The notes under the pieces were generated by a model, which was not told the DNA's origin, did not search any database, and saw only the letters and a list, made by a program, of their open reading frames with translations. A program made the translations under genes and the position numbers. A stretch of 64,000 nucleotides of DNA from Streptomyces sp. NBC_01439 (GTDB lineage: Bacteria; Actinomycetota; Actinomycetes; Streptomycetales; Streptomycetaceae). Positions within the stretch are counted from its first letter, which is position 1; every line of letters starts with the position of its first letter. The DNA lies in NCBI RefSeq assembly GCF_036227605.1, contig NZ_CP109487.1, positions 7,675,001 to 7,739,000 of the forward strand, given 5' to 3'. Shown here piece by piece: positions 56,151 through 64,000 of this stretch.

Positions 56151-59100
56151 TCAGTCCTCCTTCTTGCGCCGGCCTCGGCGGGGGCCACCGGCCGACGGCT
56201 GCTGCGGCTCCGGGGTCCCCACGCTCTGAGGGGTCGGATCGGTATTCCCGCGCGGACGCGGAACCGGAGCCGGCCGCGGCGAAGGAGCCGGTGCAGGAGC
56301 CGGTGCGGGAGCCGGCGGCCGCGGAGCATGAGCCGTCGGGGCAGGCGTCTGGCGCGGCGTCGACGGCGACGCCTGGATCGACTCCGGCTGACGCGGTGGC
56401 GTCTGAGTCGGAGTCCGCGCACCAGGCGCAGCCGGAGTCTGACCCACAGCCGGAGCACTGGCCCCTGGCTTCCTCGGAGCCGGAGTCCGCGCACCAGGCG
56501 CAGCCGGAGTCTGACCCGCAGCCGTGGCACTGGCCCCTGGCTTCCTTGGAGCCGTGGCACTGGCCCCTGGCTGACCCGCAGCCGTGGCACTGGCCCCTGG
56601 CTGACCCGCAGCCGGAGCACCGGCCCCTAGCTGCGTTGGAGCCGAGGCGCCGTCGCGGCGGGCGTTGATGACGGACGGCCGCCGGTCACGGTTCGCCTGC
56701 GCCTCGGCCTGCTCCTGCCCTGCCGGCGGTTGGACGGGGGGCTGGGCCTGAGCCGGGGCAGGGGTGCCCTGAGCGAAGCGCGTCGGACCCGTGCTCGGCG
56801 CACCCGACCGCGTCGGAGCAGGAGCCGGGGCAGGCACAGCCTCGCCGCTGAAGCGCTGCGGTGCAGCCTGCTCGTTGCTGCCCTGTTGGCTCTGCGCACC
56901 CTGGGAACCCGTGCTGAACTGCGTCGGTTCCGTCTGACCGGCGACAGCCTTACGGCCTCCGCTGGTCGGGACAGAAGCTGCGCCGCCGGCTCCGCTCTGG
57001 CCCTGAGCATCACCACGAGAACTCGACGGCTCCGTCGACGAGGAAAGTACCTCACCGCGGATGACCTTGTGGCCGTCCTGGCCGTCCGTGCTGTACCCGA
57101 AGTTCGACAGGCCACCCTGGTTGCTCAGACTCTGCGCCGTCTGCTTGTCCGAGCGCGAGCTGCCCGCTCCGCCACTCGTCAGCTGCAGCGGACCACCCTT
57201 GTCGGCGTGTCCGTCGCGACCGGGCGCGCCCAGAGCACCGGCGGGACCGGTGCCGCCCGGCAGAGCCTTGACGCCGTCACTGCCACCGCCGGAGCCACCA
57301 CCAGGACCACCATCCAGCGCCGGACTGTCCGGGCCATCCGGTCCGTCCTGCCCGCCACCCTCGAGGGTCAGCTGCTGCTTACCGGACGTCAACTCCATGG
57401 CGTCACCGTTCGTGCCGCCAGCGTTCGTCGGCGCCGTCTTGCCCGTGGGCTTGCCTGTGGGCTTGCCCGTGTTCGGGGACGCCGGACCGCTGGTCTTGCT
57501 GTTGAACCCGTCGGCGAGCTTGTTGCCCATGGCCATACCCGCGCCAGCCCCCGCACCCGAGGCCAGAGCAGGCATCAGCCCACCCTTGTCCGGCTTCGGC
57601 GTGTTGTTCGTCTCGAGGAACTTGTCCACGAGCTTGGTGACCACCTCGTCCATCGCCTGCAGCACGGTCTTGCGCACCCGTAGCAGGGCGAAGGTGATGC
57701 CCATGATCACCAGCGAGGAGATCAGGGTCAGGACCACCACGATGATCCCGCCGAGCGCAGGGCTGCCCCACAAGCCACCCGGGCTCATGAAGCTCGACAC
57801 GGGGCCAGCCATGATGTCCGGGACCGAGATCAGGAACTCCGAGACGAACTGGTAGACGAACAGCGTGACGAGGACTTCAAGGATCATCGCCGTGGAGTAG
57901 ACGATCACTTTGGCGATCGCCTGCATGGCGCCCAGCGTCGCGAACGGTACGGCGGCCACCAGGCTGAAGGTCCGCTTGATCGCCCCGGTCAGCATGCCGA
58001 TGGCGTACCAGAAGCCGAGCAGGACGATGGAGCCCAGGACCGTGGCCGAGTTGCTCCAGTACATGAACTTCGCCGGCCCCGTGCCCACCTGGCTGACCGC
58101 CATGTGGTTCTCGCGGGTGAACCCGCTGGTGGCGTTGTTCGATGAGTACATGGCCAGTGAGCTGGGCTTGAACCCGGTGTTGAGGTAGTTGTACGCCGCC
58201 AGGGGAGACAGGTTGCATGAGGAGGGCGTCTTGCCCACCGTAAAGCCACAGCCACCCTTCGTCCCCCTCGTGGTGAAGACCGTCGAATCCTTACCGGGAC
58301 GAGAGGAGGTCAGGCCCGTGCCGTCGGTCGAGATCACCGGGTGATCGACCGGCTTCGGCCCCTCTTCCTCACCGAACCTCTTCACGTCGCCGTAGCTGTC
58401 CTCGTGGACAAACCAGAGCTTCTTGGTATCCGCGCTCTCGTCCAGTTGCGTGATCGAGCTCTTGATCCCCGACTCGAAGTCGGAGGCTGCGATCTCGTTG
58501 CTCGCGATGTACTTGCCGATGATCCCGAAGGTCGAGAACACCGCTTTGAAGTCGTCCGAGGCACTTCCGGTGACGGAGACGGTGCCGTCCTTCCAAGCCG
58601 ACTCGGCGTCCTTGGCCTTCGTCCCGATGTTGATGCCGTTGAACGTCGCCCCGTGGGACTGCTTGTTGATCGCCAGCGCACTCGTGCGCACAGCCATCAT
58701 CGCGTCCGGGCTGGCCTGGTCATCGTCCCAGGAAACAGTGGCCTGGTCCGGGATCCCCAGGCGGTCGTTCATCATCCACGCCTCGAAGTCGACGTAAGTG
58801 CTCAGCACGACGCGCGTCGGGCCGGCGTGTTGACCGAGGACGGAGTCGTCGAACTTTCCGAGCACGCTGGAGTACATCGACCCGACGAGCGGCAGGCCGA
58901 CGCCGATGAAGACGACGCGCACGATGAGCCTCTTGATCGCCGAGCCCCGGTCCATCTTCTTGAACATGACCAGGCCGATGAGCAGGACGCCGATGAAGAT
59001 CGGCACGAGCGCCTGCCACGAGATGTCGACGAGCAAGCCGTACCAGCCGCTGATCCAGTGCTGCAGACCCAAGAGCGCGCCGCCTCCGGTATCGCCTCCG

Positions 59101-59798
59101 GTCATACCATCGGCAAGAGTCGGATTTACCGCCGCGACCGCGCTGTAGAACCACACGAAGGGGTTGATGAGCTTCAGGAACTGGATGATGACGTAGAACA
59201 GCGTGCCGACCGCCAGCGCCAGGGCGTAGAGGACCCAGATGATCGACCCCCCGATCACGCTCACGATCTGGCCGCCGATGCCCGAGGACATCGTGTCCAG
59301 GCCGAGGTCGTTGTTGGCCGCCCCGAAGTGCGCGTAGTCGAGCATGCCCGAGTACTTGGCGTTGCCCTTGTCGTCTTTCGCGGCCAGGGTCTCGTAGGTG
59401 ACGGTCTGCGAGGACCCCGACACCTCGGCGAAGAACCAGCCAACGATGTCGCCCAGGCTGAACTCCGGGTCGGCGTAGCCGAGAATGGAACCGCCCGCGG
59501 CCGGGCTGGACGTGACCGGCTTCCAGTTCGCGTGCATGCCCTTGTCGTTCTGCGGCGAGTTCTTCTCGCTGAAGTACGAGCTCGCGTTCGAGGCCAGCTG
59601 GTAGAGGCTGTAGTTGTCGCGCTCCTTCTTGTCGTCCGCGGACGCCGGCGAAGACGTCGCCATCATGAAGACCGGCACGAGCAGCGCCGCCAGGAGCATG
59701 AGGGCGAGCCCGCGCGCGAGCCTGCCCGGGCGGCCTGCCTCCACGTCGTGGCCGGCCCGGGCACGCAGCCTCGCCACCGCCGTGATCGTCCCGTTCAT
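56151..59798 (-). CDS. VirB6/TrbL-like conjugation membrane protein with long low-complexity tail
   Basis: A 1,215-residue protein. A signal peptide (ALMLLAALLVPVFMMATSSP, cleavage after ASA) is followed by a large extracellular part, then membrane helices around residues 130-280 (IIWVLYALALAVGTLFYVI; LVPIFIGVLLIGLVMF). A second extracellular loop contains cysteines (GCGFTVGKTPSSC). A final helix group follows near residues 590-720 (SIVLLGFWYAIGMLTG; LEVLVTLFVYQFVSEFL; GGIIVVVLTLISSLVIMGI). Residues 740-1,215 are Gly/Gln/Pro/Ala-rich and repetitive. The helix layout fits the channel subunit of a Gram-positive conjugation machine. The ATG at 59,798 has GGAGAG at optimal spacing; an ATG at 59,846 overlaps the preceding stop (ATGA). 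Confidence 0.72.
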   Translation of the reverse strand: MNGTITAVARLRARAGHDVEAGRPGRLARGLALMLLAALLVPVFMMATSSPASADDKKERDNYSLYQLASNASSYFSEKNSPQNDKGMHANWKPVTSSPAAGGSILGYADPEFSLGDIVGWFFAEVSGSSQTVTYETLAAKDDKGNAKYSGMLDYAHFGAANNDLGLDTMSSGIGGQIVSVIGGSIIWVLYALALAVGTLFYVIIQFLKLINPFVWFYSAVAAVNPTLADGMTGGDTGGGALLGLQHWISGWYGLLVDISWQALVPIFIGVLLIGLVMFKKMDRGSAIKRLIVRVVFIGVGLPLVGSMYSSVLGKFDDSVLGQHAGPTRVVLSTYVDFEAWMMNDRLGIPDQATVSWDDDQASPDAMMAVRTSALAINKQSHGATFNGINIGTKAKDAESAWKDGTVSVTGSASDDFKAVFSTFGIIGKYIASNEIAASDFESGIKSSITQLDESADTKKLWFVHEDSYGDVKRFGEEEGPKPVDHPVISTDGTGLTSSRPGKDSTVFTTRGTKGGCGFTVGKTPSSCNLSPLAAYNYLNTGFKPSSLAMYSSNNATSGFTRENHMAVSQVGTGPAKFMYWSNSATVLGSIVLLGFWYAIGMLTGAIKRTFSLVAAVPFATLGAMQAIAKVIVYSTAMILEVLVTLFVYQFVSEFLISVPDIMAGPVSSFMSPGGLWGSPALGGIIVVVLTLISSLVIMGITFALLRVRKTVLQAMDEVVTKLVDKFLETNNTPKPDKGGLMPALASGAGAGAGMAMGNKLADGFNSKTSGPASPNTGKPTGKPTGKTAPTNAGGTNGDAMELTSGKQQLTLEGGGQDGPDGPDSPALDGGPGGGSGGGSDGVKALPGGTGPAGALGAPGRDGHADKGGPLQLTSGGAGSSRSDKQTAQSLSNQGGLSNFGYSTDGQDGHKVIRGEVLSSSTEPSSSRGDAQGQSGAGGAASVPTSGGRKAVAGQTEPTQFSTGSQGAQSQQGSNEQAAPQRFSGEAVPAPAPAPTRSGAPSTGPTRFAQGTPAPAQAQPPVQPPAGQEQAEAQANRDRRPSVINARRDGASAPTQLGAGAPAAGQPGASATAAGQPGASATAPRKPGASATAAGQTPAAPGARTPAPRKPGASAPAVGQTPAAPGARTPTQTPPRQPESIQASPSTPRQTPAPTAHAPRPPAPAPAPAPAPSPRPAPVPRPRGNTDPTPQSVGTPEPQQPSAGGPRRGRRKKED
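56411..56640 (-). repeat. Tandem DNA repeats encoding the VirB6-like tail
   Basis: A unit of about 72 bases containing CACCAGGCGCAGCCGGAGTC occurs twice (near 56,417 and 56,489) with few differences. A shorter unit of about 33-36 bases, around CACTGGCCCCTGGCT, recurs at least five times up to 56,630. In protein they give PGASATAAGQ and QTPAAPGARTPAPRK blocks. Confidence 0.75.
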
Positions 59799-59842
59799 GG
59801 TCTCTCCTCTACTCCTCGTCCTCGTATCAGTGCTGACCTCGC

Positions 59843-62143
59843 TCATGTCTTTTCCAGCTTCTTGGGCCTGGGCCTTGTTGCTGGTCGCTTTGCGTTGTTC
59901 TCGGGCTGCTGCAGGCTCTTGCCTTCGTTGCGCCTGATCGCGTCAGCGTGGCCCGCGTCAGCCTCGTTGCCGTCGCCCTCGCTGTGCTTCCGGATGCTGG
60001 TGAGGTTCGCGCCCGGTGCCGGCTTGTCGTGCATGATCGAGTCCATCCGCGCCGTCTCTTCGGCCCTGGCCGCCTCCCGTCGGACCTGCCTGCGTTGGGC
60101 CTCGCGGTAGGGGTTGATCCCCAGTGCCAGGTCCAGGTGAAAGACCACGTTGGAGACGCCCCGGCGCAGGTACGTGAGGTTCTCGTCCTTGGTCGTGATG
60201 AGCCGGGCGAGATCCGGCGGGATCCGCTGGTGCAACTGCTTCTGGTACTCCGCCACTGTTTTGTCGCGCATCGGGCCGAAGAGCGTGTAGTCCGCAGCGT
60301 CGAACTTGTTGAAGTCGCTGTCGGCCAGCATCTTGTCGACGTCGTTGTAGCTGTAGACCACCCGGCCGCCGCGCTCGTGCATGTGGTCGAACTGGTCCTT
60401 GAGGTACTTCTTCACCCGGTCGTCGATGTGCTCGGTGCCGTGGATGATCACCGTGTCGCCGATTCCCAGCTTGCCGACGGCGAAGCCGACGATGTTCACC
60501 AGCTGCGCCATCGCCACGCCCTTGCCGCGGCGCATGAGCCGCGAGAAGTCGTAGACCACGCGCCGCGAATCCCGGACCCCGTCCACGGTCGAGGCCGTGT
60601 GGTTGTTGAACAGGTCGCCGTTGGTGCTCAGCATCGCGTTGGCGATGCCTCTGAGCACGTTGTAGGCGCGCAGCTGGTCCGGGTCGGTCTTGCTGGAGTT
60701 CAACAGCGCCTTGTGCGCGGTCGCCAGGTAGGAGACGAACATCTGAAGACGCGGCACCTGGGTGTGCGGGATGTTCACCACGCGCAGGCGGTTGCGCTGC
60801 TCCTGCGCGTTGTGCCGCCACATGCCCTGCTCGATGTAGAAGTCCGTGGCGGTGTCTTCGAGGGCACTGCGGATGATCGAGCCGACGGCACCATCGGTGG
60901 TCTCGTAGAGCTGCTCGAACATCAGCTTGAGCTTCTCCATCTGAGCGGAGAAGACCGTCAGCTCGTCCTCCTCCTCGCCGAACATTTCGAACATGTTCAC
61001 GTCGCCCTGGTTCAGGTCCACGCGCGAGGTGAGCCGCTCGAACCTCGGGCCGAGCTTGTCGAGGTTCGCCCCCTCAAGGACGAGGTGGACGACCTGGCCG
61101 TTGTTCAGCAGCGTCGCTTGCGAGATCTTCGAGCACCACATGTTGGCCACCCGCTGGCGGTCGAGGTACTCGCTGAGGGTGGCGTCGGCGACGATCACGT
61201 GGTGGTCGTAGGCGTTCACGTCCATGAGCACGGCGCTGTTGTTGACGTCGCCGACCATGTAGCCGACGTACTCGCCGCCCTTGTCGTTGAGGCCGTTGGT
61301 CACGAGCGAGTACGAGCCGGCCAGCTCGGTCGAGGTGAAGTGGAAGCCCTTGCCCTTCTTCTTCTCGTTGTTCTTCCACAGGCCCGAGAGCTCCTGGCGC
61401 TGCTCGCCGGCGTAGGGCGCAGCCTTCAGCGTGCCGAAGCGGTCGATGTACAGGCGCGTGACCCGGTCGATCGTGTCGTCCAGGGTCGCCAGATCCGGGG
61501 CCTTGAGAAAGAGCCGGTTGTGCACCGAGAGGTAGCTCGCGCCGTCTTGGAGCTCTCCGATCGTGACCCCGAGGTCACCGGAGATCTTCGCGGCCTTGCG
61601 CTTGGAGGAGGTCGTACCCGTCTCCTCCTGCTCGTTGGCATCGAGCCGTTCCAGCTTCTCGGACTGTTTCGTATAGGAGTCGATCCACTTGTCGTCCATC
61701 CGCTTGACCTGCTCAAGCACGACCGCGGTGACCCGCTCGTCCAGGCCGTCCGGGATCCGATCGATGCCCCAGAAGGCGGCGAAGTTGTCGTGCGCGGCGT
61801 CGTCGTGGAAGTACGCCAGGATGCAGGCGACCGAGCCGTCGACCTCGAAGTAGTCGGAGCGGAAGAGGTACTTCTCCTTCGGCTTCAGCGCGAGCAGATG
61901 CGGATAGGCGTCGAACGTGCCCTGGAGGTGCTTCACCTCCCGGCGGCGCTGCCACCAGTTCTTCTTCGGCTCTGCGGCTCCGTCGGCGACGCCGTGAGCT
62001 GCCGCAGTGTTCTGCACGCCCTCAGCCTGGGCAGCGTCGTCCGCGGGCAGATCGTCGACCAGAAGCTCCGCGCCCTCGTTCGTCTGGTCAGGCTTCTTTC
62101 CCGGGATGCCGAGCTGTGCCCGGACTTTCGTCATCAGCGCCAT
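59843..62143 (-). CDS. VirB4-like conjugation protein without P-loop (predicted inactive ATPase)
   Basis: A 766-residue protein whose alignment landmarks follow VirB4/TraC-type conjugation ATPases. The segment VTNGLNDKGGEYVGYMVGD leads to NAYDHHVIVADATLSEYLDR (near residue 312), where active enzymes have a GxxGxGK[ST] P-loop. The Walker B place reads DTVIIHGTEHIDD (near 568) instead of a hydrophobic stretch plus DEAH. The rest (VYDFSRLMRRGKGVAMAQLV; GGRVVYSYNDVDKMLADSDF) keeps the fold. Residues 15-60 are acidic and the last 60 basic. The start overlaps nothing; the stop overlaps the next frame (ATGA). An active partner ATPase may lie beyond the window. Confidence 0.72.
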   Translation of the reverse strand: MALMTKVRAQLGIPGKKPDQTNEGAELLVDDLPADDAAQAEGVQNTAAAHGVADGAAEPKKNWWQRRREVKHLQGTFDAYPHLLALKPKEKYLFRSDYFEVDGSVACILAYFHDDAAHDNFAAFWGIDRIPDGLDERVTAVVLEQVKRMDDKWIDSYTKQSEKLERLDANEQEETGTTSSKRKAAKISGDLGVTIGELQDGASYLSVHNRLFLKAPDLATLDDTIDRVTRLYIDRFGTLKAAPYAGEQRQELSGLWKNNEKKKGKGFHFTSTELAGSYSLVTNGLNDKGGEYVGYMVGDVNNSAVLMDVNAYDHHVIVADATLSEYLDRQRVANMWCSKISQATLLNNGQVVHLVLEGANLDKLGPRFERLTSRVDLNQGDVNMFEMFGEEEDELTVFSAQMEKLKLMFEQLYETTDGAVGSIIRSALEDTATDFYIEQGMWRHNAQEQRNRLRVVNIPHTQVPRLQMFVSYLATAHKALLNSSKTDPDQLRAYNVLRGIANAMLSTNGDLFNNHTASTVDGVRDSRRVVYDFSRLMRRGKGVAMAQLVNIVGFAVGKLGIGDTVIIHGTEHIDDRVKKYLKDQFDHMHERGGRVVYSYNDVDKMLADSDFNKFDAADYTLFGPMRDKTVAEYQKQLHQRIPPDLARLITTKDENLTYLRRGVSNVVFHLDLALGINPYREAQRRQVRREAARAEETARMDSIMHDKPAPGANLTSIRKHSEGDGNEADAGHADAIRRNEGKSLQQPENNAKRPATRPRPKKLEKT

Positions 62144-62188: not shown

Positions 62189-63088
62189 TCAGTTCAGCGA
62201 CGCCTTGAGGTCGAGCAGTTCGTCGTCGATGCCCTGGTAGAAGACCCGCAGCATCGGCTCGGCCTCCTCGCGGTCGAGCATCGTGGCTTCCTTGATCATG
62301 AGGGTGGAGCCGCCGACCTCGGCCTGGAGGACTTGGTGTCCCTTGCGCAGTGAGTCGGTGTTCTTGCCCTTGAGCAGCAGGTACTGGTGGATCGAGGGGA
62401 ACTTCCCGCCCACGTGCTGCGTGAGGATGTCGTACTGCTCGTTCTGCAGCTCGATCAGATCGGGGTCACGGAGCTGAAGGGCCTGGTTGCGCTGCTCCAG
62501 GTTCGCCACCTGGTGGTAGATCCGCTGCGGTTCCTTCGTTGTGATGAAGCTGTGCTCGCAGGTCGTCTCAACCTTGCGCCAGAAGGAGTCGACCCGGTCG
62601 AGGATCCCGATCCGGTCCTCGTCGAAGAGCAGATAGCTCGCTGAGCCGACGACCAGGTAGACCCGGCCTTCGCCGCCGTCGGAGAAACGGATCAGCCCGT
62701 CCTCGTCGATCCCGTCGATGCCGACGATCGAGTAGAAGTCCGTGGGGTTCGAGCTGCGACGGGTGAGGACGTGGCGGGCTGTGCGGGGCAGATACGCAAG
62801 GAAGGCCGGCACCCGCATGATGCGCAGTTCCTTCGTCTTCATCAGCCCGCCGAAGTAGGCGATCGCCGCCAGTCCCCAGAGCACGAAGAACGCGATGGCG
62901 ACTGGGCCCGAGCTCGCGACGAACGTCGACGTGCTGAACCACAGCAGGGCGAGGGCGCCACCACCGAAGAAGAGCAGCTGCTTGATCGGGGAGGGCTTCG
63001 CCGCCCAGCCGCCCTTGCTGAGCGTGATCTCGTGATCTAGAAAGCTCCTGTTCAGCGAACTTGGCACCTTATAGGACAGTTTCGCCAT
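62189..63088 (-). CDS. Two-TM conjugation protein (PrgI/VirB3-like N-terminus)
   Basis: A 299-residue protein. Residues 1-35 are cytoplasmic (KVPSSLNRSFLDHEITLSKG), followed by two adjacent helices (QLLFFGGGALALLWFST; VAIAFFVLWGLAAIAYFGG), the layout of PrgI/TcpE/VirB3 subunits. The soluble remainder (TDFYSIVGIDGIDEDGLIRF; SDGGEGRVYLVVGSASYLLF) resembles the N-terminal domain of VirB4 proteins. Together with the next gene it may represent a split VirB3-VirB4 arrangement. ATG at 63,088 with CGGAG upstream; the gap to the VirB4-like gene is 45 bases. Confidence 0.72.
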   Translation of the reverse strand: MAKLSYKVPSSLNRSFLDHEITLSKGGWAAKPSPIKQLLFFGGGALALLWFSTSTFVASSGPVAIAFFVLWGLAAIAYFGGLMKTKELRIMRVPAFLAYLPRTARHVLTRRSSNPTDFYSIVGIDGIDEDGLIRFSDGGEGRVYLVVGSASYLLFDEDRIGILDRVDSFWRKVETTCEHSFITTKEPQRIYHQVANLEQRNQALQLRDPDLIELQNEQYDILTQHVGGKFPSIHQYLLLKGKNTDSLRKGHQVLQAEVGGSTLMIKEATMLDREEAEPMLRVFYQGIDDELLDLKASLN

Positions 63089-63457: not shown

Positions 63458-64000
63458 TCAACCGAACGACGGGACGATCTTCTTCTTGCCGCCCTCCTTC
63501 TTCCAGGAGATGCGGGCGTCGAAGGTCTTGCCCTTGGCCGAGACGAAGCCCGTGCCCTGGATGGTCTTACCGGCCGCCAGGTCCTTGCGCTGCGCATCGG
63601 TGAAGGTCACCTGGCACCAGGACCGAGGTGGCTCGTCGTCGGAGCCGAAATCAGGGGTGATCTTCCTGGCCTTCGCGTCCCAGGTGACCTTGCAACCGAA
63701 GGTCTTGCGAGTCCGCGCGCTGACGAAGTCGTCGATCTCCAGCGCCTGGCCCGCCAGGAGCACCGCGACCTCCGCCGGCGTGAACGTCCGGCCAGACCAC
63801 TCCGTCGGCTTGTCCGGCACCTCCAGCTGGAACCCGACGAACTTGCGACCCTTGAAGTTGCCGACGCCGAGCGCACCGGTGGCCGGGAAGGGCTTGTTCT
63901 CCTTCGGCCTCGCCTCGAACGAGATCGTTTCGCCCGCGAGCAGCTTTGCCACCTCGTCATCGCTGAACTCGTGGCCCGACCAGACCTTCTTGAAGGCGAC
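63458..64000 (-). CDS. Topoisomerase-tail-like repeat protein (5' end outside window)
   Basis: The C-terminal 180 residues of a protein that continues past the right edge. It consists of about three repeats with the plan W-S-G-x2-F-[ST]-x2-[EQ]-x6-AG (KVWSGHEFSDDEVAKLLAGE; TEWSGRTFTPAEVAVLLAGQ; RSWCQVTFTDAQRKDLAAGK). Each is followed by a strand rich in K, F and G (FVSAKGKTFDARISWK) and a closing PDFG/PSFG. Such repeats occur at the end of type IA topoisomerase or DUF3945-like proteins carried by conjugative elements. The N-terminal catalytic part is not visible, so the assignment is tentative. Confidence 0.6.
   Translation of the reverse strand, partial: VAFKKVWSGHEFSDDEVAKLLAGETISFEARPKENKPFPATGALGVGNFKGRKFVGFQLEVPDKPTEWSGRTFTPAEVAVLLAGQALEIDDFVSARTRKTFGCKVTWDAKARKITPDFGSDDEPPRSWCQVTFTDAQRKDLAAGKTIQGTGFVSAKGKTFDARISWKKEGGKKKIVPSFG

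Follow-up and report, generated by a model that had tools for sequence, protein, structure and literature searches.

A VirB4 Homolog without Walker Motifs

The window analyzed here, a whole stretch of 64,000 nucleotides (positions 7,675,001 to 7,739,000 of contig NZ_CP109487.1 from Streptomyces sp. NBC_01439), carries part of an element with conjugation genes, among them a gene on the minus strand for a 766-amino acid relative of VirB4, the protein regarded as a general adenosine triphosphatase (ATPase) of type IV secretion. Five-digit coordinates in this text are window positions and seven-digit coordinates are contig positions (Table 1). The original prediction had placed here a VirB4-like gene devoid of both Walker motifs, and this was confirmed, the P-loop pattern being absent from the protein. 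In the operon the gene follows, after 45 bases, a gene for a 299-amino acid protein and is itself followed by the gene for a membrane protein of 1,231 amino acids.

Both the homology of the 766-amino acid protein, as judged by a sequence profile, and its fold, as judged by a structure model, are those of VirB4, and a second structure model, of a family member from Enterococcus faecium, also supports the VirB4 fold. Thus, the mismatch in fold that had been named as an outcome that would speak against the prediction did not occur. The structure model of the Walker-less protein also matches the HerA, DndH, and TrwB folds. A Pfam search with the protein returned nothing relevant and an NCBIfam search returned only the Mycoplasma VirB4 model, with an expect value (E) of 0.1 that lies under the curated cut-off, while six further Walker-less proteins reached at best E 0.0033 with the NCBIfam VirB4 models. 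As a control, motif-bearing VirB4 proteins matched these models in five of five cases with E 8.3e-43 or better, and they likewise fall under the curated cut-offs despite such strong values.

Loss of the ATP Site across the Family

The homolog search yielded 1,070 proteins at E 0.01, of which the best 120 were examined; the other 950 could include a motif-bearing member. Pooling of three homolog listings gave 173 listed homologs, which were scanned for P-loop patterns. Although a P-loop–like pattern occurs in 8 of them, it stands at the Walker A place in none of the 173, so that the expectation that the loss would be kept across homologs was borne out and a normal P-loop in close homologs, the other outcome that would have told against the prediction, was not found among them. 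Walker A (GxxxxGK[ST]) is hence absent from the window protein and from the aligned place in the listed homologs alike. The place is still folded as a strand, a loop, and a helix in the predicted secondary structure.

For a closer view, the window protein was aligned with the 170 homologs of at least 550 amino acids (171 rows; P0139, P0146, and P0173 are shorter and were left out). Two alignments were made, which differ in register by a single residue at each motif place, and the statements on the motifs are true in both. Position 333 holds A, S, T, or P and position 334 holds N, T, S, D, or G, so that neither is a lysine in any of the 171 rows, whichever register is used. Walker B (hhhhDE) is also absent, and His568-Gly569 stands there in 171 of 171 rows. 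Trp336, Asn383, and Trp442 are likewise identical in every row; Asn383 and Trp442 are common to motif-bearing VirB4 proteins, while Trp336 and His568-Gly569 are peculiar to the Walker-less branch. When all 173 homologs were scanned for the HG pattern, four were missed; on visual inspection P0163 and P0171 do have HG, and P0146 and P0173 are fragments that stop short of it. In the genomes, HG is present and the P-loop absent from its place at 42 of 42 listed loci. Two very diverged outliers lie outside the 171 rows: Lactococcus pJM4A, which has YG for HG, and Streptococcus salivarius B502, which lacks the Trp. Loss of the ATP site is therefore a trait of the family and not a peculiarity of the source gene. 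As a separate observation, pJM4A carries beside its transfer genes a gene annotated as CpaF/VirB11 (T2SSE match, E 7.1e-21).

Evolution and Distribution

In a maximum likelihood tree of 48 rows, 40 Walker-less and 8 motif-bearing proteins are split by a single branch with a support of 100/100, which is present in all 200 bootstrap trees. This tree has long branches (Lactococcus and S. salivarius), and a tree of 34 rows (26 and 8), made without these two longest rows and a number of others, shows the same split, again with 100/100; its midpoint root falls on the branch separating the two groups. Because Walker motifs are general in the VirB4 superfamily, one ancient loss is the simplest story, the root of the tree not being established. 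The ratios of nonsynonymous to synonymous substitution rates (dN/dS) of the gene against ten relatives, 0.20–0.38, show it to be under purifying selection.

The family is spread over two phyla. The gene occurs in 2 of 61 related genomes, the source genome included, and in 1 of 396 evenly drawn Actinomycetota genomes, which is the source genome itself. A scan of genome contigs matched at least 80 stretches and gave at least 42 loci, which by their record titles span 12 genera of Actinomycetota. The plasmid search returned 190 records at E 1e-5, a count that takes in motif-bearing relatives. Among viral contigs, 171 stretches matched the search patterns and none codes for a relative.

A Putative Structural Role for VirB4

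P-loop nucleoside triphosphatases (NTPases) that have neither the P-loop lysine nor the Walker B acids are very unlikely to carry out the usual ATP hydrolysis, and because both are gone here, such hydrolysis is very unlikely for this family. The gene thus probably encodes a VirB4 that lost ATP binding and hydrolysis and persists as a structural component of a Gram-positive conjugative type IV secretion system. On balance we also favor the wider proposition of a conjugation branch in two phyla without any VirB4 ATPase, in which VirB4 would be a scaffold with a rebuilt pocket (W...HG) and transfer would be powered by the coupling ATPase alone, and which would escape detection of self-transmissible plasmids by their VirB4. 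In such a machine, the protein with VirB3 and VirB4 N-terminal domains and the Walker-less VirB4 would make up a ring in the inner membrane, the base for assembly of VirB6 and the remainder. The rebuilt pocket would hold a single conformation, and DNA transfer would draw its energy from the coupling ATPase, while the AAA+ ATPase might act in assembly or disassembly. In the excerpted text of a December 2025 review (PMC12857230), six of the twelve VirB4 copies of R388 appear structural; in the Walker-less branch, all copies would be.

The coupling proteins are in keeping with this in the two actinobacterial systems compared, the source element and the Gordonia plasmid pGKT2, where they retain TRAGKG and DELGN. 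The source element and plasmids W01, W02, and W07 each carry a coupling protein of TraG type on the record with the Walker-less gene; a protein of the FtsK/SpoIIIE type is present in W06, and W05 shows a comparable AAA_10 match. pGKT2 encodes a family member of about 53% identity together with a MobL relaxase, VirD4, and an AAA+ gene, and the excerpted text of a review reports the plasmid to be transferable, which speaks for a working system.

Several observations weigh against the structural reading. The report of pGKT2 transfer is second-hand and says nothing on the need for the Walker-less gene. Three staphylococcal coupling proteins have N or A immediately before the lysine of the P-loop, and their Walker B motifs read EELGN (SAP020A), DELGN, and DEVGN, with E for D in one, so that the presumed motor is itself deviant there. 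By the profiles used, no clear coupling protein is seen in W03 and W04, and none of TraG type near the Walker-less gene in the related genome G023. The profile built from motif-bearing VirB4 proteins is blind to some VirB4 types, as the VirB4-like P-loop protein at 5191663 goes unreported by it at E 0.01. Finally, an acidic residue occupies position 571, three residues past His568, in 168 of 171 rows, and it could act in a new site.

This last point leads to the rival that fares best, though we think it unlikely: a rebuilt active site, in which a nucleotide or another ligand would sit in a new pocket of Trp336, His568-Gly569, and the acidic residue 571, making the protein an unusual NTPase or a ligand-gated switch. 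The full invariance of W336, H568, and G569 along with the acidic residue exceeds what a scaffold needs, but the missing lysine at residues 333 and 334, the loss of the Walker B acids in either register, and the YG of pJM4A speak against such a site.

The double ClpA/ClpB-like AAA+ ATPase as a replacement motor, working on or through a dead VirB4 ring, is less probable still. It has two P-loops in the source element, and an AAA_2 match, marking the double AAA+ gene, is found in 13 of 14 plasmids, including 8 of 8 Walker-less ones. However, 5 of 6 motif-bearing plasmids carry it too and hence it is no specific substitute for VirB4, which weakens it as a replacement motor.

That the chromosome or a further element provides an active VirB4 in trans is improbable. 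The source genome does encode the VirB4-like P-loop protein at 5191663, but it lies 2.5 megabases from the element and is so distantly similar that the VirB4 profile missed it; the family, moreover, covers two phyla and includes plasmids that move between hosts. The gene for this P-loop protein adjoins one of the size of a VirB4 N-domain gene. A second, active VirB4 within the element, which had been suggested, was not found with the profile used: the motif-bearing VirB4 profile finds only the Walker-less gene in the source genome and in plasmids W01, W02, W03, W05, W06, and W07, and it has no match in W04, where the Walker-less gene has diverged too far. Each of two motif-bearing controls yields one VirB4 with this profile, and G023 yields the Walker-less gene plus a weak place elsewhere (E 0.0034). 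The AAA_10 profile is insensitive to this kind of VirB4, missing the P-loop VirB4 of W08, W09, W10, and W14, and its negatives were not used. A six-frame scan of 7728000–7809999 for P-loops gave seven matches. Six of these pass the coding filter; a kinase-like gene and the AAA+ ATPase account for two each, the coupling protein for one, and the last is a chance match. The same scan of SAP020A gave the AAA+ ATPase only, plus one chance match, and that of pGKT2 gave 15 matches in frames of at least 200 codons, among them the coupling protein and an AAA+ pair.

Recruitment of a VirB4-derived protein to a task outside the transfer channel, with which the additional HerA, DndH, and TrwB matches of the structure model would agree, is a slender possibility. 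A local mutation or gene decay in the source genome, to which the truncated topoisomerase and the insertions, as judged by eye, in the source element might point, is refuted by the loss in all listed homologs, near and far, and runs counter to the open frames and the dN/dS values, leaving it practically no probability.

Comparison with Known Systems

The nearest motif-bearing homologs are the VirB4/TraE proteins of pLS20-like Firmicute plasmids (Lp16G, pUCCLBBS124_A, pBE43_1, pUTI-058y-1, and pLIS6), which match the profile over the whole length. These plasmids have the same neighbors, namely a VirB3-like small gene, a VirB4 N-domain gene, and a lysozyme/CHAP gene, as well as MOBP/MobL relaxases and, in 5 of 6 searched, the double AAA+ gene, as in the Walker-less systems. 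In contrast to the Walker-less proteins, however, their VirB4/TraE have retained GxxxxGKS as well as DE at Walker B. The VirB4 of Thermoanaerobacter pseudethanolicus (PDB 4ag5/4ag6) is 15% identical, and its motif residues are absent from the Walker-less protein. TrwK/VirB4 of R388 (8rtd, 7o43) differs in being an ATPase, according to a review, and in belonging to a Gram-negative system.

The conjugation systems of pWBG749 and pHTbeta are, in the excerpted text of PMC4652767, Gram-positive and MOBP, like the Walker-less plasmids. That text describes the genes of pWBG749, and the words VirB4 and ATPase do not occur in its main part. The core of their origin of transfer (oriT), CTTATGCTCTT (PMC4652767), has no exact copy in 7728000–7827999 of the source genome and is absent from pGKT2 and SAP020A; it is present in 3 of 11 Walker-less and 5 of 8 motif-bearing plasmids. 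The idea that the staphylococcal and enterococcal plasmids are the pWBG749 and pHTbeta families was dropped on this test, and no link between the plasmids of PMC4652767 and the Walker-less family was established.

The December 2025 review states, in its excerpted text, that Gram-positive VirB4 homologs keep Walker A and B (PMC12857230), a rule to which the Walker-less family is an exception. No title or abstract opening among Creative Commons-licensed papers, mostly at the level of listings, reports such a family. These findings suggest that in some bacterial mating machines VirB4 serves as a fixed component and not as an engine. A Walker-less branch conserved in this way separates functions naturally and opens tests of what VirB4 ATP hydrolysis is for and of whether a coupling protein alone can drive transfer. 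On the practical side, curated VirB4 models reach at best E 0.0033 with the seven Walker-less proteins tested, and PLSDB types 0 of 11 Walker-less plasmids (pGKT2 included) as conjugative; the contrast with motif-bearing plasmids, 2 of 8, is weak.

Neighboring Genes and the Element

Table 1. Features of the source element and of related sequences
Feature	Position	Strand	Description
Walker-less VirB4 (766 amino acids)	59843..62143	−	VirB4 N-terminal remainder and RecA-like domain without Walker A and B
Former Walker A, residues 315–339	61127..61201	−	Strand, loop, helix; without Gly-Lys-Ser/Thr; invariant Trp336
Former Walker B strand, residues 564–573	60425..60454	−	TVIIHGTEHI; invariant His568-Gly569
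VirB3 + VirB4 N-domain protein (299 amino acids)	62189..63088	−	Other half of split VirB4; homology to SAP020A and pGKT2 genes
1,231-amino acid membrane protein	56151..59846	−	Probably VirB6-like, from position and hydrophobic stretches
Topoisomerase C-terminal piece (209 amino acids)	Window 63458–64000, continuing right		Toprim_Crpt, E 2.6e-17
Giant single-chain RNA polymerase-like protein	7780147–7785702 (L005:12148–17703)	−	Pfam matches to the two catalytic barrels of multisubunit RNA polymerase; source element
VirD4/TraG coupling protein	7785862–7789938	−	TraG-D_C, E 2.2e-14 at 7786804–7787190; P-loop AITRAGKG, DELGN
Double ClpA/ClpB-like AAA+ ATPase	Frame 7792244–7794670	−	Two P-loops; TIGR02639 (ClpA), E 1.8e-75; ClpV-type model, 2.1e-67
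MobL relaxase	7794444–7796981	−	PF18555, E 4e-109; right of the window
VirB4-like P-loop protein	5191663–5192508	−	AAA_10, E 1.4e-11; GESGNGKS; 2.5 megabases from the element
Staphylococcal VirD4 coupling proteins, altered P-loops	L066:9931–13800; L093:990–4850; L094:1096–4800		TRGNKGQ (SAP020A, S. capitis), TRSAKGQ (S. epidermidis)

The 299-amino acid protein is homologous to the product of a pGKT2 gene (blastp E 1e-80) and to a 290-amino acid protein of the staphylococcal plasmid SAP020A (blastp E 3e-23). The latter covers positions 21–275 of the VirB4 model NF045975, and in a motif-bearing relative the following gene covers positions 316–884, which indicates that VirB4 is split into two genes. 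The start codon of the 1,231-amino acid gene overlaps the VirB4 stop (ATGA), and its product, without a family match in Pfam or NCBIfam, resembles that of the pGKT2 gene at the same place (blastp E 2e-92).

In place of the C-terminal topoisomerase piece, G023 has a 791-amino acid frame, and pGS01, pGKT2, and SAP020A have annotated topoisomerases. At the ends of the element, neither a transfer RNA gene nor, between the two flanks tried, a direct repeat of at least 14 bases was found. Frames resembling a group II intron reverse transcriptase (7745116–7746597, minus strand) and a transposase (7765863–7767467, plus strand) are, by eye, inserted in the element. In G023, the region 7012000–7071999 contains VirB3, VirB4, and VirB6 genes and, by eye, an integrase-like frame.

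The element also encodes a giant RNA polymerase-like protein, which we take to be YonO-like. It matches RNA_pol_Rpb2_6 (E 4.4e-8) and RNA_pol_Rpb1_2 (E 7.2e-5), and its counterpart in SAP020A (L066:17000–22423) does so with E 2e-16 and 1.6e-10, the two proteins aligning with each other at E 3e-65. Such proteins carry the motifs GDKISDLHGNKG and DGDFDGD, and among 63 sequences scanned, many with 10 kilobases per side, frames of this kind are found in six elements, which also include pGKT2, L067, L093, and L094.
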